Shown: in pieces, positions 138-13,345 of the stretch
How positions within the stretch are numbered: position 1 is the first letter of the stretch
Layout of the letters: every line of letters begins with the position of its first letter
From: Sporisorium sorghi
Taxonomy: Eukaryota; Basidiomycota; Ustilaginomycetes; Ustilaginales; Ustilaginaceae
Direction: 5' to 3'
DNA length: 13,621 bases
Assembly: GCA_023212695.1 (NCBI GenBank)
Contig: JALCCG010000417.1
Coordinates: 1 to 13,621, forward strand
Notes under the pieces: generated by a model
Seen by the model: the letters and a program-made list of their open reading frames with translations, nothing else
Told to the model about the DNA's origin: nothing
Databases searched by the model: none
Made by a program: the position numbers and the translations under genes

Positions 138-201
138 GTTTTTCCCTTCGACTAAATGAAGGCGCTTTATTCCTCATACTCTATTGCTCATGCTGTTTTT
201 C

Positions 202-218
202 TTTTTTTTTTTTTTTTT
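202..218. repeat. Poly(T) tract, 17 T
   Basis: Seventeen consecutive T lie about 60 bases upstream of the likely start codon of gene A (ATG at 278). The tract could be a poly(dA:dT) promoter element, a simple repeat, or the reversed tail of a retroposed sequence. No flanking duplication was recognised. Confidence 0.8.
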
Positions 219-277
219 GTTGGGCCGAAAGCTTCCTTGTCGCACTACCACCAACCCTTGCTCTTTCTGCCGTGATC

Positions 278-1820
278 ATGACACGTCCGGCTCCTACACC
301 TTTTTCGCGTGTGCTGCGCTCTCAGACCCGTGCAGAATGCACCAGCTCTGCCGCTAATGCTGTGCCTCCCCGGGCATCCTCTTCTGCAGTGCCTGCGGTA
401 CCTGAGTTGTCGGTACTTACAGTGCATCAGACCTCACTGGCTGCGCATGCTAATCACAGTTCGCCCCGAAACGAGGAGACGGCCAGGACGGCAGCCTGCA
501 GGCGACCCTTCTGCCACTGCTAGCGGTTTCGCCAGTGGACCCCCTACACCTGTCTTTGCACCCGTCGACGAGTATCCGCAAACCCCTGTCGCCTCCTTCG
601 CGGACGAGCAGCTGCCTCTGTCCCGCCAAGAGATTGACCCTCTGCTTCTGCAGGCGTCGACTGCCTTCTGTGAGGCACAGGTGGCCGCAGCCGCCGCTCG
701 CCAAGAGTTCGAGGCTCTCGTAGCCCGGAATCAGGCCTATCGCCAAGAGTGCGGGTGGCCGCAGTCTCATCTTGTCGATGCCCCATCCGACAGGCCGGAG
801 GAGCTTGCATCTGCCGCTCTGCGAACCACACCCGAGGTCGAGGCTAGCTGGCGCCGCGAGCTCGAGGAGACGGCCACGCCTCTGGGCTCTCCAATGCCTG
901 TCGACCGCCCAGACCACATCGATAGCCATGACAGGTGCTCGTCTGACCATCAGCATCCTGGCACGTCCGATACCGGGCCTTTCACGCCGTCGCCCGCTCC
1001 ATCTTGCCCTCCCTCGCCTGTCCCAGTCGCATTTCATGCTCCCTCCGCCACCGAGATCTTGGAGTGGTCGCAGCGGCTCATGGCGCCTTCCCTTCTCATC
1101 TTTGTCGCCCATCGACACTGGCCACCAAGCTGGATCGTCGAGCCCAAGTCTGCAGCCGAGAAGCGTCTGCACCGTCTGGTTGTGCTGCGTCTCACAGAGG
1201 GCTCGCAGCCCTGGCCGACCCTGTCATGCAAACGCTGCAAGCGCCTTGATACTCCGTAAGTGATGCTACATCGCCCATGCTCGTTCTAGTTTGTTTCTCT
1301 GATCACCTCCCCCGTTTATGTTCGTGTCAACAGCTGTTTTGCCGCTGCATTTGCTGTGCCTTTTGGCAAGAAGCCCCGTGTGGCAGCTTGCTGTGTGCAC
1401 TGCTTCCTCCAGAAGGAGATCAAGTGCGAGAGGACGCAACCCGTGTCGGCTCGACATCGATATCTTGGCGACCAGCCACATCACGTCATTCTTGGCAGTG
1501 ATCGATCCGACCTGCGCACTCTGACCTTTGAGGGCAGTATTGGTGCTGGTGCGGTGCGTCGTCGCAACCGCCTCTCTGGCTGGGAGCAGTCGCTCTGGTG
1601 GCGTGATGCGTTCCAAGAGGTCTTCTACCTGGACGATGACATCGCGCCTCAGGTACATGCCGCGCTCGACTTCTTTTTGAAGCAGCGTCGTCTGCTCATC
1701 TCGGAACGGGAGCCTTATGAGGACCAGGGAGGTGCTCCTCTGTGTGAGCTCAACCTCGTTGAGGGCGACGAGCAGAGCCCCACCTCCCCTCTTGTGTCCG
1801 AGGCAGCTGACGGGGCGTGA
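278..1820 (+). CDS. Gene A: cysteine-rich putative zinc-binding protein, spliced
   Basis: Function is not recognised. The likely start is the ATG at 278 (MTRPAPTPFSRVLRSQ...). The N-terminal ~300 residues are rich in Pro, Ala, Ser and acidic residues and look disordered. The conserved part begins near 1205 with C-K-R-C, x6, C, continues across an intron at 1256-1333, and then has a CCxxC group, KCE and RYLGD. This is a plausible zinc-binding module, though not a canonical Zn2Cys6 cluster. The C-terminal ~110 residues are acidic and contain a Trp/Phe-rich stretch (WWRDAFQEVFYLDDD). The stop is TGA at 1818-1820. The reading frame changes once near 480-520: the frame from 278 closes at 521-523, while the next frame carries the rest. 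This is either a one-base insertion (real or an assembly error) or an unrecognised intron. Gene B at 3808-2663 is a paralogue by motif spacing and intron position. A regulatory or nucleic-acid-binding role is only an inference. Confidence 0.6.
1256..1333 (+). other. Intron in gene A (78 nt, phase 2)
   Basis: The donor GTAAGT starts at 1256 and the acceptor CAG ends at 1333, with a CTGAT branch-like box near 1298. Without splicing, the frame stops at TAA 1257-1259. With splicing, CC from exon 1 joins C of exon 2 to make Pro, followed by Cys-Phe, which completes the CxxCx6C pattern. Gene B has an intron at the equivalent position and phase. Confidence 0.85.
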
Positions 1821-2044
1821 TGTGCCTTTCCGTGGCTCGCCGCCCCTGTAGCCACCCATGTAATAACGTAATCGATGTGCATCCGACGCAATGAAATTGA
1901 TGGTAGTGCTCGTACATGATCATGAGCACGGCTGTGCGTGATCGCAATGAGCTGTGATTCGGAACACAAGAGTGTGAGAAGCTAATTTACGGTACATGAT
2001 GGTGTGAGAGCCTAAATACATGGTGAGCTGAATACATATCACAA

Positions 2045-2479
2045 CTAATGCCTGGATGAGCTGGCCACAGGGAGGGTTTCAAAGAAGCCGAAAGGATCGT
2101 CGTTTTCGATCTTCTCCGTAACCGAGCCGCCGGCCTTGCTGCTTTTGAGCGACAAAGCAAAGTCCCGTACGTCAGCAGGGTTCTGCGGGAAATCGCTGGT
2201 TGAGCAGCGGCGAATATGGTCGACAAAGGCGGTCTCGGCGGCCGGCGAAAGAGCTAGCTGGCCAGTCTGAGCATCTTTCTTCGCCTGAACCCCCTTCGAC
2301 CGGTCGTACAGCGTCGTCTTGGCAACGCCGTGGAAAGCGGGTGCAGCGCTGATTCGGGCACGCTGGCCAGCCTCCGATTCAGCCAAAGCCTGCTGATTCT
2401 TGTATTCTTTGGCATCGCGAGCGGCTGCAGCCTGTGTACGAGCTGCTTTTGATCGCTTCGAGGAGGTGTTCCGCGGCAT
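2045..2479 (-). CDS. Psq/CENP-B-like helix-turn-helix protein (pogo transposase N-terminus type)
   Basis: The 144-residue product starts at the ATG at 2479 (MPRNTSSKRSKAARTQ...); an upstream GTG is not a likely fungal start. A basic, Ala-rich N-terminus of about 30 residues precedes a helix-turn-helix region (about residues 28-65, with AFHGVAKTTLYDR). This resembles the Psq-type HTH of pogo/Tc1-family transposases, where a fold of the form AAxxFGVxxSTLxxR is typical. The next part, LSPAAETAFVDHI to FALSLKSS, resembles the start of the CENP-B second HTH. No DDE catalytic domain follows: the protein ends soon after DDPFGFFETLP. It could be a transposase remnant or a domesticated DNA-binding protein. 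Its C-terminal peptide recurs at the end of neighbouring gene B, which is on the same strand. A TATTTAAG sequence lies just upstream of the ATG, but it is too common to call a promoter. Confidence 0.6.
   Translation of the reverse strand: MPRNTSSKRSKAARTQAAAARDAKEYKNQQALAESEAGQRARISAAPAFHGVAKTTLYDRSKGVQAKKDAQTGQLALSPAAETAFVDHIRRCSTSDFPQNPADVRDFALSLKSSKAGGSVTEKIENDDPFGFFETLPVASSSRH
2076..2113. repeat. Copy 1 of a 38-nt coding repeat shared with gene B
   Basis: This stretch encodes the ENDDPFGFFET tail of the HTH protein. It aligns without gaps to 2721-2758 with about eight mismatches. The match extends through both third-codon and coding positions, so it reflects shared ancestry or a conserved peptide. 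Confidence 0.65.
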
Positions 2480-2662
2480 TTGCACAGAAAAAGCTTAAAT
2501 AGTTACGGAATTTGATTAAAAGCCAAAAGCGGGGTCCTTGGTGGTGCTGACGGTGTAAGTGGGGCTGGGTGGTGGTGGTTTCACTCAAAGGATCTCACGG
2601 CGATCATACAGGCCACTACCATCATACTTGGCAAGTTTCAAACTTTCAATTTGGTTCGAGCA

Positions 2663-3808
2663 CTACACGCTTTCGGGTACTATGTGAGTTACGGTACGAG
2701 AAGGGTCAGCCTTTCGAAGCGTTTCAGAGAAGCCAAAGGGCTCGTTGTCGTCGAACTTGTCCAGGAAAGAACGCCTTGGAGGCGGAGGGGTAGTCGCTGA
2801 CAGCGTCAAAAGGGCTTTGTTGTCATTCTCTGAAGTGTTGTCACCGGCATCGACGGTGTCAGGCGTCGTCCGCGTCGGCAAGCTCTTCGTCCTCCTCCGC
2901 GTTGGCAAGCTGCTCGTCCTCATCGATACGCTCTTCGTCGTCATCCGCGTCGGCAGGCTCTTCCTCTTCTTCCTCGTCAGCAGGCTCTTCGTCCTCGTAA
3001 TCATCGGTAGGCTCTTCATCCTCGTCGACAAGCCGCTCTTCTTCTTCTTCTTCCCCTTCTTCTTCTTCGTCGGCGGACTCCTCTCCTCCATGTGCAGAGA
3101 GCCAGAGGGTCTTGACGAGACGTGGTTCCAGAGAGTTGCAAATTCTTTGCGATCCTTCTCGTCTCCTGTGAGAGTAGCAAGCAAATGTAGATCGACGATG
3201 CGGGCCTTCTCGACGTCGGAAAGTGGCTGGCAGTCTCGATTGCGAATGGCTGCTCTGCTGTACTGAGCTGCCTTTCCTGTGAGATCAAGAATGAAGTGGT
3301 TGCGCTTCAGCTGTAAGAGCAAGTATGGTTAGTATTCAGGCTGTGGCATAACAAGCATCTGAAGCAACTTACTCGACGTTGCAGGCCCGGGATCGAAGTC
3401 ACCTCAGTGAAACTTGGACCATCCCCAAGGTATCGAATGGGATGCTGCTCCACATTGCCTGGTTCGCACTTGCGTTTTCTACCAATGCAGCAAGTACAGG
3501 CTCCGCCAGCAAGATAATGTGCAACCCCAAGGGGGCTGGCAACCGTAATCTTGAAGCACCTGAGTGCAGAAACCAGATATGAATCACGATCAGAAAGGAG
3601 CTCGAGAATCTGAAGATGTTGGCTGGACTCACCCTGCATCGTTTTGCTGGCAGAATTTGCAATGAATGTTGAGGGGTATCAGATCCTGCCACTCGCAGAG
3701 ACGCGCCCAGACCTGACGGCTCAGGCGTGTAAGAATGTACGGACGTATCACGCCGGTCTCGTCCAGCCAGTAGCTTGGCACTTGTTTGAGAAGAATTTCG
3801 AATGCCAT
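2663..3808 (-). CDS. Gene B: cysteine-rich paralogue of gene A, three exons
   Basis: Function is not recognised. Exon 1 runs 3808-3633 from the first in-frame ATG (MAFEILLKQVPSYWLD...), exon 2 runs 3559-3373, and exon 3 runs 3310-2663. Exon 1 ends in CKFCQQNDAG and exon 2 opens with CF, then CTCC, KCE and RYLGDGP. This reproduces the module of gene A with identical spacing from the third Cys through RYLGD. Exon 3 begins LKRNHFILDLTGK and has a helical stretch (DVEKARIVDLHLLATL), then a highly repetitive section at about 2870-3080, then the peptide DDNEPFGFSETL. In the exon 3 frame the repeat reads as Lys/Ser/Arg-rich; in another minus frame it reads as Glu/Asp-rich, closing at a TGA near 2864. 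One of these could be the ancestral frame with paired shifts. The open frame extends upstream of 3808 through a Gln run without an ATG, so the start could be further out in another exon. Confidence 0.6.
2721..2758. repeat. Copy 2 of the 38-nt coding repeat
   Basis: This stretch encodes the FDDNEPFGFSET segment near the end of gene B. It is the partner of 2076-2113. The copies lie about 645 bases apart in the same orientation. Confidence 0.65.
2870..3080. repeat. Imperfect trinucleotide/short tandem repeat inside gene B
   Basis: The plus strand is rich in repeated CTCTTCGTCxTC-type units. On the minus strand two frames stay open through most of it. One gives Lys/Ser/Arg-rich repeats (units like KSLPTR) and the other gives Asp/Glu-rich repeats (units like DEEPAD). 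Slippage in such a tract can switch between the frames. Confidence 0.8.
3311..3372 (-). other. Intron 2 of gene B (62 nt, phase 0)
   Basis: The donor GTAAGT starts at 3372, a perfect ACTAAC branch box follows, and the acceptor TTACAG ends at 3311. Splicing links LQRR to LKRNHF in phase 0. Confidence 0.9.
3560..3632 (-). other. Intron 1 of gene B (73 nt, phase 2)
   Basis: The donor GTGAGT starts at 3632 (minus strand), a CTGAT-like branch box lies in between, and the acceptor CTCAG ends at 3560. Splicing joins GG to G, giving Gly followed by Cys-Phe. The position, directly before the third Cys of the module, and the phase are the same as in the intron of gene A. Confidence 0.85.
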
Positions 3809-3873
3809 CACCACAACATGGCGCTTTGCTGCCCAGTAGTGGAGGTGCCTAGGCCCAACTCTTGAATGATAGA

Positions 3874-3891
3874 GCTGCTGCTGCTGCTGCT
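3874..3891. repeat. (GCT)6 microsatellite
   Basis: Six consecutive GCT units lie just upstream of the gene B start. On the minus strand the tract reads as a short Gln run in the frame leading into gene B, so it may be coding if the gene starts further upstream. Confidence 0.75.
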
Positions 3892-3961
3892 TTCCGGCTG
3901 GAACAAAGCATTGAAGCCAAACACCCCACTTCCAATACGCGTCTATGCAAGAAAGACCCAC

Positions 3962-4620
3962 TCAACTTCTACGCGACAACTGTCTTTCATCTACTCAAGA
4001 GGATGTTTGCTTTCCTTTGGCCTCTAGTAAGCGGAGAACGTGGACGTGCCACAAACGACCTCTCTAAAGGCAAGCAAGGATGCGGCACATGCCTTGTTGG
4101 CTGAGGCGTTTTCCGACGTTCTCCTGTCCAGGTCGCGAGGGTCCCTTAACATGTTCAGGGGAAAAAAAAAAAAAAAAAAAAAAAAAAGAAAAAAATGAAC
4201 TAAAACCCAGATACGTCACTTGTTCACGACGTTAGAACCCTGCCGACAGGATGCAGAACTTGACAGGCTGCGGTTGCACGCTAGCTGTACCGTCCTATTG
4301 GAACGCACTGATAAGAAAGAAAAATGCAAGGGCTTTGCCGATGTGCACGAAAGCTGATTGCCGAGGTCATGCAATCCCTTCTTCACACGATCACGCTAGT
4401 CTCGAAGGCAACGTCATGTACAGTAAATTACTGATTTAATGTATAGCGTCAAGTACCACATGTATGTCGAAGTCTCATCTCATTCCGATCACAGGCGGCC
4501 GAGCTCACTATCATGCGAGAGTACTACCTTTAGATCGAGTTTCGTATCAAAGAACGCGTCGGTACGGGCGTGTCGGCACCACATGAATCACGTTATGAGC
4601 CGGATGCGCGACATGATTTA
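3962..4620. other. Intergenic stretch without a supported gene
   Basis: Only short open frames (60-80 codons) with no recognisable similarity, splice structure or composition bias occur here. The one distinctive element is a long A tract at 4162-4187. The stretch lies between the 5' side of gene B and the 3' end of the RecQ gene. Confidence 0.6.
4162..4187. repeat. Poly(A) tract, 26 A
   Basis: Twenty-six A are followed by G and seven more A (4189-4195). A tract this long can mark the 3' end of a retroposed transcript or a non-LTR element on the plus strand, but no reverse-transcriptase sequence or target duplication was seen next to it. A simple repeat is equally possible. Confidence 0.8.
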
Positions 4621-4702
4621 GCCAAAGACCACCACATGAACTCGGACAAGGTCGATCAGCCGCCCTCTGCGAGGGAAGCAATGGCATCGCCCGAATCTGC
4701 AG

Positions 4703-5983
4703 TCATCTGCGAATGTTGAGGAAGCCGGGATTGAGCGTGAGCCTGCCTTCCAAGTCGAGCTGGTTTGCTGGAATCCTGAGCGATGCGCGCCCAATTCGAC
4801 TGTTGCCTGCCACCGCTCTGTCACTCCTCGACGCCGGCGACGCTCGTGCAGCCCAAGTATCCGGATCCTCATATGCGTACTGCCCCAGATTGGCAGCGGC
4901 GATGGCGGCGCTCTTGCGTGGCGCTGCAGGACGATCCTGTCTCGATGTAGTAGCTGCGGCTGGGGCGGATCGCCCTGACGTATCACCTGCAGGCAGGCAA
5001 GGTCGAGAACCGGGCGACAGGAACGAGTTCCAACCTGGGCCTCTCGTCGCTGCGATGTGAGCTGCACCATACTGGGCCTTATCCGCCTGGAAGAACCGCT
5101 GGCAGATGGAGACGTAGCGACTGCCGTACTTGTCGAGCCACCGATTGTGCCTGCCCTCGCGTTCGAGACCGCTTCTGAGAGACCCAACACTCGATGGCGC
5201 CAAAGCCGAAATCTCCTGCAGCAACTCGTCCGGGAGCAGCCAGCCCTGCGTCTGCCGTTCCTGCTTTGCGAGCGTGGCATCGAGCTTCTTCAGCTCACGG
5301 TAGCATCCCTGATTGGCGTCGCTCGATCGAGGATCAATCTCCAAGTCGTCCTCGCTTCCCTTGCTTTCGCGTGCTTGAAAGGTGGTCGTTGGACGCTGCG
5401 GAGCGGGCTTGGACACGCCCAGAGGAGCTTTGTCGTCCGAGTCGGCGTCGGAGTCATATTCGTCCTCAAACATCTCTGGAGGTACGAAGCCGTCGTCGTC
5501 CGCCTCCTCAACGTGTGCCGGTCGTTGCGCTCGATCTTGATTGGAGCGATGATTTCGGCGAGCCTCCTGCGAGCTCAGGCTGATGTTGGAAATGTCGTGG
5601 GCATCCTCGTCGAACTCAGCGAAATCGGTATCCTTCGCTTGCCTTTGCTGCTTACTGGCATTCTTGGACCGCGCTGGCGCTGACGCTGATGCCTCGGATG
5701 ATTTCGCCGTGAGCTGTAGATTGACCTTCCTCTTGCCGCTCAGCAACTGCGATGCTGCCGGGCCGAGGACGAGATACGACGTGCTGAAATTTTTGGCGTT
5801 CATGACGTCCTTCATCTTGAACACCCCCTCCGTGCAGAGGCGCTCGAACAGCCGATGAACCTCTTCCCTGGCAAGCGCAGAGCCAGCGCCGTGCACCTCG
5901 ACCTTGTCATGGCCCGCAGTTTTCACCTTCTTGGAACGAGCGCCGTAAAAGACGTCCGCAAAGTGGAGCAAGGTCCACTGGCC
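4703..5983 (-). CDS. RecQ C-terminal part: RQC winged helix, linker and HRDC
   Basis: In frame from GGC at 5983-5981, directly after the frame change. The RQC winged helix covers about 95 residues, starting [14 protein letters not shown] and including [20 protein letters not shown] and TSYLVLG. The helix beginning [10 protein letters not shown] and the nearby HG correspond to the DNA-binding wing region of BLM-type RQC domains. A Ser/Lys-rich and acidic linker follows ([10 protein letters not shown]). An HRDC domain of about 73 residues comes next ([15 protein letters not shown] to [14 protein letters not shown]). The tail is Ala/Arg-rich, ending NPGFLNIRR before TGA. Having both RQC and HRDC supports an Sgs1/BLM type rather than a short RecQ. 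The first ~44 residues of the longer open frame upstream of 5983 are a shadow of the zinc part. Confidence 0.92.
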
Positions 5984-5984
5984 T

Positions 5985-7475
5985 CTGGATGCCCGCGATC
6001 TCCTTGACCAGCTTGACCGCATTGATCGCGAGGTCCGTAACGTCCTGGACGCGGATGGTGCCAGTTTTGCGGCAGCAGTTGTCGCACGTGCTGTGGCATT
6101 GCTCCGGGGAAACATCCTCGCTAACGTAGCGCAACACCTGGACGCAACGACACTCGATGTTGTTCTCGCAGAATCTTTGCATCATGCACAACGAGTCGAT
6201 GCTGCAGTCAATGGCTTCCTGCGACTTGTCTTCCTCGCCGCGCATCATCCTCTCGGTCTTGTGCACGTCGGCGTACGAATAGTAGAGAATACAGACGGAG
6301 CTCTTTCCGTCACGTCCAGCTCGGCCCGTCTCCTGATAATAGCCCTCGAGCGACTTGGGCAGCGAATGGTGGATAACGAAGCGCACGTCGGGCTTGTCGA
6401 TGCCCATGCCAAAGGCGATCGTGGCCACGATCACCTTGAACTCGTTGCGCTGCCACTTTTGCTGTACCATCGACCGATCCTTCTTCTGCAGCTTCGCATG
6501 GTAGTGGTGCGCCGAGATGCCGTGCTTGATCAGATCGGCGGCGACCGTCTCGCACGAGTCACGGCTGAAGCAGTAGACGATGCCACACTCGTCCTTGTGC
6601 GAGGCGAGGATGAAGCTCGAGATCTCGTCGACCACCTTCCTCGGCGGCTTCGAGCGCACCTGATACTCGAGGTTGGGGCGGTTGAAGCTCGAAGACAACT
6701 CCAGGACATTCTTCATCTTCAGACACGCCTCGGCATCCTTGACGACGCGAGCATTGGCGGTCGCAGTGAGCGCCATGATGGGCACTGTGGGATATCTGAT
6801 GCGCAATTCGCCGAGCTCCGTGTAGTGCGGGCGGAAATCGTGACCCCACTGGCTCACGCAGTGCGCCTCGTCAACGACGAACCGAGCCAGCCGCTTTTGC
6901 GAGTGGAGGTGGTCCAGCAGTTTGTCCGCCCGGTTGGACGTGCGGACGAATTCCGGGGTGAGATAGAGCAGCCGCACAAAGCCGCTGCGATCCTGCACTG
7001 CAGTCATGGCCGCCCGCTTATCGTCTGCGTTCATATCACCGGTGAGCATGACCGCGGCGATGCCCAGTTCGATGAGGTGACGCACCTGATCTTCGATGAG
7101 AGAGAGAAGCGGGGATATGACGATGGTAACGCCCGGGGCAGAGTCCGTATCAATGCACGCCGGAAGCTGGTAGCATAGCGACTTGCCTCCACCGGCGGGC
7201 ATTAGCACGAAGACGTCGCAACCCGCCAGCGTGCCGTTGATGGCTTCGAGCTGGTTTGGACGGAAATGCCTCGGTCTGAAAAACTTATCACAGGCCTTGA
7301 CCAAGGGTGCTGTGGCATGCGTCGGATATCGTCCCTCGAGAGCGGCTGCTGCATGATGGGCCGCACAGCTTGAACTTAGCCTCGACCGGCAAGTCTTGCA
7401 CTTCTTCATCGTCCTCCTCGTCGTCGTCGCTGAGCTCGAAGATTTCGGCGTTGGCGAAGGATGTGTCTCGAGCAT
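5985..7475 (-). CDS. RecQ helicase core and zinc-binding part
   Basis: Numbering is from the ATG at 7475. Motif 0 is FRPNQLEAI (71-79). Motif I is MPAGGGKS (92-99), with Ala where Thr is usual. Motif Ia is [11 protein letters not shown] (120-130). Motif II is [19 protein letters not shown] (200-218), with an intact DEAH box and aromatic-rich loop. Motif III is ALTATA (235-240). Motif IV is GIVYCFSR (298-305). Motif V is [19 protein letters not shown] (348-366). Motif VI is [12 protein letters not shown] (379-390). The zinc part follows at 436-467 with C residues ending in CHSTCDNC. All catalytic residues are present, so this segment alone would encode a normal core. The ATG at 7475 is probably not the native start: the first ~45 residues look like out-of-frame reading of the acidic N-terminus, and helicase similarity begins at about residue 50. 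Confidence 0.93.
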
Positions 7476-7521
7476 CCGTGTGGGAGGGGTGGATCAGAGG
7501 CACCGCTGAGTCCAAGCGCTA

Positions 7522-10099: not shown

Positions 10100-11109
10100 T
10101 CAATCAAGGTCCATCTGAAGCTTGACAGGTCGGGGCTGCTCTTCAGTGGTTGATGCACCCGAAATCAAAGACAGGCTTGGCTGTACCTGTTTGTTCCACA
10201 CAGGGTTGGGCATGGTATTAAGATGGTCGTGGCCGTGCAAGGTGGGGTCGGCAGACAGAATCTTCTCAAAAGTTGGGCGAACCTTGAAAAAGTCGAGACA
10301 AGGATAAGCGTGCTTGTCATGCACACCTCAGATCGAGAGCCAAGGACACTGCTGACCTGTGATGGGCTGCAATTGCAGTCGCAACCCCCGAGGTGTGTCT
10401 CCAAATGAAACTTTGGTTCCCAGGTCGAGAAGCATGCTGATCAAAGCATGTGGCATGAGTGGCTCTTGTGCTGGGGCCATCGAGGCATGAGTAATGATCG
10501 GTCCTGCGAGTTTGGCCGCTTTGCGTGGATCAGTTTCTGTCATCTGTGGAGCCGATTGGTTCTTGGCCTCCCAGGCAACATAGGTCATGTAGCGCGCAGT
10601 GTGCATCTCAATGCAGCTGGCATGGTTGTTGCCTCTGTCGTTGTTGCCGTCCGCTTCGGCAAAGGGCTGGTTGAGATGGCCCATAAAGACCGGGATGATG
10701 CTGTCGATGCCATGCTGGCCATGCGCCATTTGCAGTGTGACACCGCGCTTCCAGCAATACCAAAGATATTCAGGCATGATCTCGGTGATCTCCTCTGGTA
10801 GCACGTCAAAGTGGGTAAAGTTGGTCCATGCTGGCAGCTTTTCGTCGATCACATTACTTCATGGTTGCATTGCACACAGACCGTTGCGCAAGCCGCCGTC
10901 ATAGACATCTCTTCGAGGGGCACAGCTTGACCAATGATGCTGGTGTAGTCGTTTTGGGTGGGCGGCTTTAGAGACTGTTGTTTGCAGCTACGCTCGAGGT
11001 CATCGAACCATTTGTGTTTTGCAGCATTGCAAGCAATGATGAAGGCAAGATGTGAAATGAGCTCACCGTAGGTTCCCTTGAGTGACACCATGACCAGGTC
11101 AAGCAGGCA
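10100..11109 (-). CDS. NTPase-like protein, C-terminal part in two frames
   Basis: Directly after the TGA at 11110 the frame continues to 10852 (LKGTYGELISHLAFIIA..., ending CNHEVM). A shift then moves reading to the frame with VIDEKLPAWTNFTHFDVLP. GIDSIIPVF follows, then a TGA at 10328-10330. After it, GVHDKHAYPCLDFFKV continues in the same frame to 10100. AWTNFTHF and GIDxxIPV are characteristic of the family's C-terminus. An ancestral CGA at the second TGA would read SIRGVHDKHAYPCL, which fits the family. Confidence 0.6.
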
Positions 11110-11112
11110 TCA

Positions 11113-12219
11113 TTGCACGAAACTCTCGAGTATGTGGCTGTACATGTTGAGCTGAAGCTTTCCCAGCAGGTCCTCTCGCGAATCGCTGAACAGCATGAAG
11201 AGTGAAGCAGCAATGGCCAGCACAGGCTCTGAGGGAGAATCAATGTACATGGCAGCCTTGTTGGTAATGTGGGTGGTGATACGCATGTGGCGGTCAACAG
11301 TCATATCCATGAAGATTTTCTGCTTTGTAAAGAGGGGGGAGCTGGGTGAGCAGGTTGGGACGAGGTTGAGCATGAGCCGCAAGGCCATGACGCTGAAGCA
11401 GTGCCTGGCATCGTTGTATCTGAAGTTGTAGTCGCAGATCAACTTGAGCTTGGCGACTTCCCAAAAGCTGTGATTCTTGAGGGAGCTCCACAAGGGATGT
11501 CTGTAGGTGATGATGTGTTGGTGCAGAAATGCCTTCGAAGCACAAGAGAGGCTCTGCTGCTCGGCCAAGAGCGCATCGAAGCCTACACCAACAAAGGTGG
11601 GGAGGGGCACAGCGGTCTTGCTACGAATCGACGTTTTGGCATCAATGTGTTCGACGAGATGAGCAGCACTGCTGCTGGTGCTCATGAGCATGAGCCAGAA
11701 AGTCAGATCCGTTTCGGGACGTGGCAGATCGCCCAAATAGCACCACGCACAGCAGAGGCTGTTGAGTGGGTGGATTCCGTCATTGTGTCCGACAACCATC
11801 ATCTTGACGCACTCATTGATTGCTACAATCACGGGTGGTGGGCGTGTGGCGCCAGTCTGGCCACAAAGCAAGTGCAGGTGGGACGAGATCCGGCTGATCT
11901 GACACTGGAGGTTGGAATAGGGTGCATAGATGTAATGCCGGAAGGTTTCCTCATACTTTTTCTCATCAAGCAAATCTCCGGTTGCTTGGCCGAGCAAGTT
12001 TTGGGCCTCCAAGGTGGCATCTGCGAAGAAGTTGTGGTGCTCTTGGTTTTGACTGGCGTTTAGATCGAGATGATTGAGTTGCAGAAGGTAGAGATGCTTA
12101 GCTTTGTTGGTAGGGCACTTGTCGAGGCTCTCAGCAAGCATTTGGAACAAAGCGCTGAGAAAGCAAGCCACGTGAAGGTTGCACTTGAATGGGTGGGACA
12201 GATGGGCGTGTAAAAAAAA
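11113..12219 (-). CDS. NTPase-like protein, middle part (Walker B-like and C-terminal motifs)
   Basis: In frame after the T9 frameshift, from LHAHLSHPFKCNL to a TGA at 11110-11112. PPPVIVAINECVKM (near 11800-11840) is a Walker B-like strand with Asn in place of the usual Asp. FWLMLMSTSSSAAHL resembles a sensor segment. Also present are VGFDALLAEQ, HPLWSSLKNHSFWEV, HMRITTHITNKAAMY and PSEPVLAIAASLF. Translation of the same frame continues after the TGA with LLDLVMVSLKGTYGEL, so the stop is a nonsense change, not the natural end. Confidence 0.65.
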
Positions 12220-12220
12220 A
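12212..12220. repeat. A9/T9 homopolymer at a frameshift
   Basis: Nine A on the plus strand (T9 on the coding strand) are where the reading frame of the NTPase-like gene slips. Eight would restore the downstream frame. Homopolymers are common sites of both replication slippage and sequencing error. Confidence 0.8.
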
Positions 12221-13105
12221 GTCAATGACGCTGTTGTCGGGAAAGGGAAAGCCAGCCTTTGTGTTGCCAATAGCATTGTTCGGACGAAAGCAGACATAGA
12301 GCAGAGGCGTGAGATGACGGCAATCGAGCACCATGCGTGTCTTGCCTGTACCGCTTGACTGGACGATGGGGGTGCCTCGAAAGTAGGGCTTGAGGTGTTT
12401 CTTCTCGAGTTGGTCGAACTTGGAATCGAGTTGAGAGACAAAGTCGAGAAAGCGGCTGGGCGCATGGCCTTGGTACGGGCGGCCGAACTGGGATGCAAAT
12501 CGAGTGTTGGTGTCTGCAACCTCGGCCGAACTGGGACCAACTGGATATGAGACGGCGACATGGACGAGTACAAGCGCAAGAGCGCGGTCATCGTCAGAGG
12601 CGATCCGGTTTTTGAGTTCAGAATAGACCAAGCGTAAGGCTGAACCAAGCTCAGATTGACTTTTGACGGCCCTGAACAGCTCCAGGAGATGGGAGCCAAG
12701 CTTATCAATGTTTTCGATGATACGTTTCGCAAGCCGACCAGTGGTGTAGATAAAGTCATCATGGTCCTCGGGTGTCAAAGCACGATTGTGCATGCGTATC
12801 AGAAAAGGCCAACAATCAAGCTTGCGAAAGTCCGGCATGCATGAGTTGGCCTTGACAGTGTGAGGCGATTGCTGTTCAGCCTGGATGTTACTGCTGATGG
12901 GAGGAGGCATGGTGGGCTCGGAAAGCGCATCGATAAATTTGCGAAGGTGTTCCAGGGGCCATTGGCTGGGGTTGACATGACAATTGTGGATAATGTGCCA
13001 AACAGCTTGGTCATGGTCGGATAGCTGTCGAGGCTGTGGATCGTCCAGAAGGAAACAATCCACCTTTCCAGCGATCTGCTGCATTTGCGAAGGGGAGAGG
13101 GGCAT
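12221..13105 (-). CDS. NTPase-like protein, N-terminal part with P-loop
   Basis: About 295 codons lie in frame from the ATG at 13105; a TTG upstream at 13132 is not a credible fungal start. The N-terminus is helical and unremarkable. A Walker A-like VQSSGTGKTRMV sits at residues 248-259 (near 12338-12364). The first Gly of the classical GxxxxGKT is replaced by Gln, as is usual in this fungal family. Next come LLYVCFRP and AGFPFPDNSVIDFF, also family-like. The frame is lost in the T9 run at 12212-12220: with one T fewer it continues into the next segment. Confidence 0.65.
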
Positions 13106-13345
13106 CGTGGTGCGAAATTGTGGATGAACCAAGATGCGACAGGTTGCGATGCTAGTGTCTCGTCGATTCTAACGTAGATGGTGGTAAATTTACTGTAGTC
13201 GTGGTAGTCGTGGTGGAAGGCATGGCTGCATTTATCAGTCTGCCTTGTCAGGCTCTGCTGGCTACTGTAGCTGCCTCGCTGGCATGCGTCTCTTAACCTA
13301 GTTCACGTAGATGCGAGATTCATGTAGATGAGGAATTGAGGGGGA

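Follow-up and report, generated by a model that had tools for sequence, protein, structure and literature searches.

In ordinary fungal Zn(II)2Cys6 clusters (PF00172), the basic half comes first and contacts DNA, and another short, CX2C-based module, the retroviral-type zinc knuckle, has the form CX2CX4HX4C. The published spacing of the Zn(II)2Cys6 cluster is CX2CX6CX5-12CX2CX6-8C as given in PMC5542705, and the loop is described as reaching X15 in Pleurotus (PMC7295025). Here we examine a six-cysteine module encoded by two paralogous genes, A and B, in a 13,621-nucleotide stretch of Sporisorium sorghi DNA (the window), which is a single contig of a 23 Mb fungal assembly. The contig also carries a RecQ gene whose product shares 76% identity with a protein of Sporisorium scitamineum. 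The features of the two genes are as follows.

282..1255, plus strand: open frame of gene A, first Cys-bearing exon, with in-frame ATGs at 357 and 447
1227..1478, plus strand: gene A module, CX2CX6C-X18-CX2CX7C-E ... RYLGDxP, with intron 1256-1333 inside
1256..1333, plus strand: gene A intron, 78 nt, GTAAGT..CAG, phase 2, directly 5' of the Cys3 codon
1334..1820, plus strand: gene A last exon, with Cys3 to Cys6, RYLGD and a C-terminal region related to the C183 copy
2663..3310, minus strand: gene B last exon, with a second conserved block, RNH...QPLSxxEKxxIxDL...LSGD-like
3311..3372, minus strand: gene B intron 2, 62 nt, GTAAGT..CAG, phase 0
3373..3559, minus strand: gene B second exon, with Cys3 to Cys6 and RYLGD
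3415..3661, minus strand: gene B module, CX2CX6C-X19-CX2CX6C-E ... RYLGDxP, with intron 1 inside
3560..3632, minus strand: gene B intron 1, 73 nt, GTGAGT..CAG, phase 2, directly 5' of the Cys3 codon
3633..3808, minus strand: gene B first exon as preliminarily described, with an open frame reaching 3961 and homology to the C11 copy that extends upstream of 3808

The preliminary description of this DNA held that genes A and B share a cysteine motif with a phase-2 intron directly before the third Cys, and both splicing and alignment bear this out. Joined at the junctions proposed there, the gene A module reads CKRCKRLDTPCF and the gene B module reads CKFCQQNDAGCF; left unspliced, each gene runs into a stop within the first donor. 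From Cys3 onward, the two modules align without a gap and are identical at 16 of 48 positions. They share the C at +22, the KCE that occupies +29 to +31 and, at +41 to +47, RYLGD-x-P, as had been reported. The BLASTP score for A against B is 42.4 bits (E 1e-8, 35% identity over 80 aa), whereas the best of 200 full shuffles reaches 20.0 and the best of 200 shuffles in which the Cys residues are kept reaches 28.1, which rules out a chance similarity. The family core also includes an RLxRxVxxRL segment upstream of the six-cysteine module. The proposed gene starts did not hold up as well. ATG 278 of gene A is not in the frame of the Cys exon, and the frame that it opens ends with a stop at 523. 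ATG 278 may be joined to the Cys exon by an upstream intron or a frameshift; otherwise the start is ATG 357 or 447. The gene B start at 3808 is probably internal, since the open frame continues and the alignment with the C11 paralogue extends further upstream.

One full member (C11), one partial member (C183) and two fragments elsewhere in the genome support the earlier suggestion of a real protein family. The C11 paralogue matches B at 43% identity over query residues 1-101 (E 7.7e-26), the C183 half paralogue matches A at 28% identity (E 2e-9), and neither has a stop in the matched stretch. Intron 2 of gene B corresponds in position and phase to an intron of the C11 paralogue (C11:24594-24685), and the conserved block in the last exon of B is followed by a Lys-rich low-complexity stretch and then an EPFGFSETL tail. 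In the C183 copy, only Cys3 to Cys6 are present; an AG occurs at the site of the A/B intron, with no donor and no first half-site found there. The fragment at C11:33108-33239 is interrupted by two TGA and one TAA, and that at C359:8841-9056 consists of the C-terminal block only. Two features of A and B prove variable in this wider set. The phase-2 intron before Cys3, which had been called fixed, is present in A and B but absent from C11, and RYLGD is kept in A and B but is replaced by LAGER in C11 and YRGD in C183. Since C11 lacks both, neither feature is fixed in the family. Genes A and B and their copies are best read as a small, diverging, lineage-restricted family of one smut-fungus lineage.

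Searches beyond this genome gave little else. In a database of 5.8 billion proteins, the search at ~135-429 aa returned two matches only, both of them pieces of gene A itself, and the search at ~73-231 aa returned none at E up to 1; relatives of the length of gene A (>430 aa) lie outside both ranges, and long relatives, or very diverged ones, may escape these length limits and the exact-word filter. A control query with the RecQ exon retrieved smut proteins, so smuts are represented in this database. Among solved structures, a profile of A, B and C11 matched a single chain, that of an alginate lyase (E 1.1), which we judge to be chance, and in viral contigs 31 stretches fit a pattern and none is a relative. 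Among the papers listed in literature searches, no title or abstract beginning describes such a module, the exact spacing strings retrieved no paper, and the term "circularly permuted" was absent from the eight papers listed of 149. In the parts of the proteins tested, no 19-residue stretch has a Kyte-Doolittle mean >1.42, so that nothing points to secretion or a membrane location; a secreted effector is rejected on this basis for the parts tested, the true N-termini of A and B being uncertain.

Between A and B, on the same strand as B, lies a truncated pogo/Tc5-like HTH frame, and the left end of the contig resembles repeats. This frame and gene B have a common 25-residue C-terminal tail (12/25 identical), and one relative of the frame elsewhere in the genome matches PF03221; the frame itself lacks the Cys module, however, and A and B lack a PF03221 match. 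It could be proposed that A, B and their copies are decaying or mobile-element-derived genes, copied and broken around repeats and without present function. The two fragments noted above would fit such a history, as would the missing first half-site of C183, the out-of-frame ATG 278, the truncated HTH frame and the repeat-like contig end. However, open frames, Cys residues and clean splice sites are all kept in A, B and C11 at identities of 43% (B-C11) and 35% (A-B), neither A nor B matches a transposon protein in Pfam, Tc5/pogo transposases included, and DNA searches with 1-1200, 1200-1600 and 1821-5000 (1601-1820 being left out) found no second copy of 157-4627. We therefore consider decay quite unlikely.

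The preliminary description recognized no named domain with this spacing. This stands insofar as Pfam offers no match, but the half-site spacing is that of the Zn(II)2Cys6 cluster and the loop alone is out of range. One possible reading of the six Cys is CX2CX6C-X18/19-CX2CX6/7C, with CX2CX6CX18CX2CX6C in C11, a loop of X19 and a last gap of X6 in B, and X18 and X7 in A. The Cys3-Cys4 loop of 18 (A, C11) or 19 (B) residues exceeds the 5-12 given in PMC5542705 and the maximum of 15 given in PMC7295025. Like the cluster, the module has two CX2CX6C-type half-sites, and its second half has, in B and C11, a basic CxxCxxRKRxC pattern resembling the cluster first half; it differs in its longer loop and in that the basic half is second instead of first. 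The first half of the module also lacks two features seen in the cluster, an Arg/Lys between Cys2 and Cys3 and an Asp following Cys3. The pairing of Cys residues in the second half is ambiguous because each member has an extra adjacent Cys, seen as CC in A and in C183 and as CxCC in B and in C11. In the gap-free alignment, the CX2C of A is offset by one column from that of B and C11, and alignment of the latter two at +22 gives an alternative pairing, CX1CX7C. A retroviral-type zinc knuckle is likewise short and based on CX2C, but the module has CX2CX6C and no His at the needed place.

A Pfam comparison, which the preliminary description had proposed, placed the module in no known zinc-finger family: for A, B, C11 and the C-terminal blocks of B and C11, no family scored above its cut-off, PF00172 included. 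A match to bHLH_NPAS4 (E 0.02-0.12) was judged to be chance. Membership in PF00172 is rejected, given the lack of a model match, the overlong loop, and a first half without the Arg/Lys and Asp/Pro pattern. A genome search with PF00172 listed 85 places at E up to 1, 80 of them over the cut-off, and none of the 85 falls on the family contigs C355, C11, C183 or C359, though this search reads exon by exon and is thus a fair test only for the intronless C11 copy. The module might nevertheless be a cluster in standard order that has drifted past the Pfam model; the half-site spacing is compatible with this, and the 80 places would be possible sources. The loop length and the missing first-half residues argue against this, as do p values of 0.13-0.83 for the first half under a cluster first-half matrix, and we rank it as the least likely of the readings considered.

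With filters off, a HMMER model of 26 cluster domains from the same genome aligns A, B and C11 in swapped order, and the half matches are weak (9.7 bits maximum). The profile-profile comparison of the module with real clusters (17.55, probability 12%) is not above shuffles, being beaten by 6/60 column shuffles in which the five all-Cys columns were kept. When the second half is scored under the cluster first-half matrix with Cys ignored, shuffles do as well in 5/2000 cases for A, 36/2000 for B and 55/2000 for C11, p values that are not independent, since the three are homologues, and that come from several half/matrix combinations tried. Under this matrix, the second halves of A, B and C11 score 6.35, -0.03 and 0.39, respectively; the mean for real first halves is 14.1. 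For C11, the second half suits the second-half matrix almost equally well (p 0.027 versus 0.0096 with the first-half matrix, with 55/2000 shuffles for both). The C183 second half, equaled by 1186/2000 shuffles under the first-half matrix, fits neither cluster-half matrix (p 0.21, 0.17), and the module first half is unlike both cluster halves (p 0.11-0.94). Beyond the Cys residues, the second half of the module thus bears a weak resemblance to the basic first half found in real clusters.

Much of this evidence would also suit a different, unnamed zinc fold in which four Cys hold a single zinc in a ribbon or treble-clef-like module, for instance the CX2C of the first half and a pair from the second, with the CX6C spacing a coincidence. 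The lack of a Pfam match for A, B and C11, the profile comparison that does not exceed Cys-kept shuffles, a first half unlike either cluster half, the 18-19-residue loop, and the ambiguous second-half pairing created by the extra Cys are all in keeping with this. A four-Cys site, however, would not need a third Cys, and a third Cys 6-7 residues past the pair is kept in both halves in 3/3 full members; a second half that is weakly like the basic half of the cluster also counts against it. We regard the single-zinc fold as a real possibility, second to the reading that we tentatively favor, a long-loop, possibly half-swapped variant of the Zn(II)2Cys6 cluster in a lineage-restricted smut family. 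Metal binding by the module, already thought probable in the preliminary description, is plausible. The core of the favored variant would be two CX2CX6-7C half-sites and the 18-19-residue loop, with the six Cys most likely holding two zinc ions as in the cluster. In B and C11 the basic half reads ACTCCxxRKRxC, and its position, second and thus the reverse of ordinary clusters, points to a possible swap. The host proteins may be nuclear proteins that bind nucleic acids. The more specific proposal, that of a binuclear cluster with its halves exchanged within the smuts, the non-basic half first, the DNA-contacting half second and a new 18-19-residue loop between them, appears doubtful.

If the module is not a rearranged cluster, its interest would be modest, as a small, unnamed family of one fungal lineage that probably binds zinc. 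If the half-swapped cluster is real, the module would be a rearranged form, missed by the present Pfam model, of a very large fungal transcription-factor domain. Counts of fungal regulators based on PF00172 would then be too low, and the order of the cluster's two similar halves would prove exchangeable.

Spliced at the junctions proposed in the preliminary description, genes A (plus strand) and B (minus strand) read CKRCKRLDTPCF and CKFCQQNDAGCF, respectively, after which 48 positions align without a gap and with 16 identities. The A–B alignment spans 80 amino acids at 35% identity (42.4 bits, E 1e-8), well above the best of 200 full shuffles (20.0) and the best of 200 shuffles in which Cys was kept (28.1). 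The proposed common module, a six-Cys stretch, is upheld by these values.

The splice sites of both genes are canonical, and in each unspliced gene a stop falls inside the first donor. Gene A as first drawn keeps its junctions and module, but its ATG at 278 lies in another frame than the Cys exon, and that other frame ends in a stop at 523. Codon-usage scores, from a model trained on two conserved genes, favor the Cys frame in seven of eight 90-base steps starting at 548 but give no information upstream of that point; the 5′ end may involve an intron or a frameshift, or A may begin at 357 or 447. Two database proteins, P0001 and P0002, both encoded on a contig of 2583 bases, correspond to parts of A's two exons, called separately as if intronless. 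For B, the proposed frame scores highest in exons 1, 2, and 3, with negative scores in exons 1 and 2. ATG 3808 is probably not the true start of B, because no stop interrupts the frame as far as 3961 and, upstream of this ATG, W...RHVVV can be aligned with the paralogue on contig C11. For the last exon the Lys frame is chosen, since an RNH...QPLS block, also in C11, and a tail described below both fall there; an imperfect tandem repeat (73%, 2864–3053) lies in this exon, with Lys-rich and Glu-rich frames both open across it. A T tract precedes both genes (poly-T at ∼202–218 before A; poly-A at ∼4162–4187, poly-T in B's direction, before B).

Searches of the same genome (23.17 Mb, 469 contigs) with the A, B, C11, and C183 proteins as queries gave the following.

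C11, 24159–24599 and 24683–24913: full member
C183, 6694–7107: partial member, third to sixth Cys and the region beyond
C11, 33108–33239, minus strand: fragment with stops
C359, 8841–9056, minus strand: C-terminal block only

No first half-site was found upstream of the C183 member in the stretch read, and two protein database searches, restricted to ∼135–429 and ∼73–231 amino acids and to sequences passing an exact-word filter, returned no relatives outside this genome. Across the second parts of A, B, C11, and C183, the four that can be aligned, the invariant residues are the third Cys and, counted from it in A, Gly +10, Cys +22, Cys +30, Gly +44, and Arg +76. A phase-2 intron directly precedes the third Cys in A and B, as first described; C11 has continuous coding DNA there, and the intron is therefore shared but not fixed. 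At the equivalent place C183 has AG followed by TTGCTTT, with no donor identified. B and C11 share a second, phase-0 intron two codons ahead of RNH, and A's last exon is uninterrupted.

A and B converge, with one more minus-strand frame between them. The other features of the window are as follows.

2045–2494, minus strand: truncated pogo-like candidate frame of 144 residues between A and B, with relatives in the same genome
2073–2117 (pogo-like frame) and 2718–2762 (B), minus strand: shared tail, 35 of 45 bases identical
4703–7493, minus strand: RecQ/Sgs1-type helicase gene (Pfam DEAD, Helicase_C, RecQ_Zn_bind, and RQC; HRDC slightly below cut-off)
10328–13168, minus strand: long frames with a P-loop-like GTGKTRMVLD stretch, no Pfam match over cut-off

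The 144-residue frame has 17 other related places in the genome (E < 1e-3), the best of which lies on C145 and has a match to PF03221, the DNA-binding domain of Tc5 transposase; a Pfam scan of the frame itself gave no match. It looks like a truncated pogo-like gene. Its end shares a 25-residue tail with that of B (EKIENDDPFGFFETL and DKFDDNEPFGFSETL, respectively). A text search among 75 loci of the genome found these two copies only; a genome search with the tail returned the self-match and missed B's copy, and is too weak to exclude further ones. In a protein database search, the helicase exon at 5910–7493 shares 76% identity, across 84% of its length, with a protein of Sporisorium scitamineum, which places the source among smut-like basidiomycetes. 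The gene is split over two overlapping frames, which indicates an intron or frameshift around 5907–6181. Bases 4628–4925 are 66% identical to C160:25136–25489.

The window is contig C355 in full (13,621 bases). Its left end, C355:1–75, agrees at every base with C183:1–75 in reverse complement; this one shared end suggests that the contigs are neighbors, with the C183 member ∼8 kb from A. C355 probably breaks inside a repeat at this end (1–160). Bases 52–98 and 92–156 resemble C77 and C130. Three short pieces, 10559–10590, 10686–10823, and 12119–12179, resemble C183 DNA at 2.4, 2.5–2.6, and 4.4 kb, so that a relative of the 10328–13168 frames may sit near the C183 module gene.

The module reads CX2CX6C-X18-CX2CX7C in A, CX2CX6C-X19-CX2CX6C in B, and CX2CX6C-X18-CX2CX6C in C11. 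In the gap-free alignment A's second Cys pair is shifted by one column relative to the pair in B and C11; with the alternative pairing at +22, the latter two would read CX1CX7C. Fungal zinc clusters have the pattern CX2CX6CX5–12CX2CX6–8C (PMC5542705), with loops of up to 15 in a mushroom set (PMC7295025). Against these ranges the half-sites fit, but the 18–19-residue loop does not; the earlier remark that no named domain with this spacing was recognized holds for the loop and fails for the half-sites.

The module was also compared with the Zn(II)2Cys6 cluster (PF00172) half by half. A HMMER model of 26 domains of this genome (from 30 loci among 85 listed PF00172 places, 80 over cut-off) aligns weakly with A, B, and C11, with the halves in exchanged order (second halves, 7.3–9.7 bits; first halves, 1.5–4.5), and gives C183 0.9 bits. 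A matrix test that ignores Cys, with eight of 26 second halves left out for lacking CX2CX6C spacing with flanks, separates true first from true second cluster halves (26/26 and 18/18). Scored as cluster first halves, module second halves were equaled or beaten by 5 (A), 36 (B), 55 (C11), and 1186 (C183) of 2000 Cys-kept shuffles; for C11 the count under the second-half matrix is also 55/2000. Real first halves average 14.1 under this first-half matrix, and module second halves score 6.35 (A), −0.03 (B), and 0.39 (C11). Under either matrix, p values of the module's first halves range from 0.11 to 0.94. The profile–profile score against clusters, 17.55, was exceeded by 1 of 60 full shuffles and by 6 of 60 that kept the five all-Cys columns. 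By these sequence scores, evidence for the exchanged order is suggestive in the second half and absent in the first. On the tests made, membership of the family in PF00172 is rejected. The main rival to a cluster-like site, a different, single-zinc fold, is only slightly less likely.

A, B, and their relatives are a real, small, diverging family, whose module is probably zinc-binding. The best-supported mechanism, held tentatively, would be a binuclear, zinc-cluster-like site in a nucleic-acid-binding protein of the nucleus.
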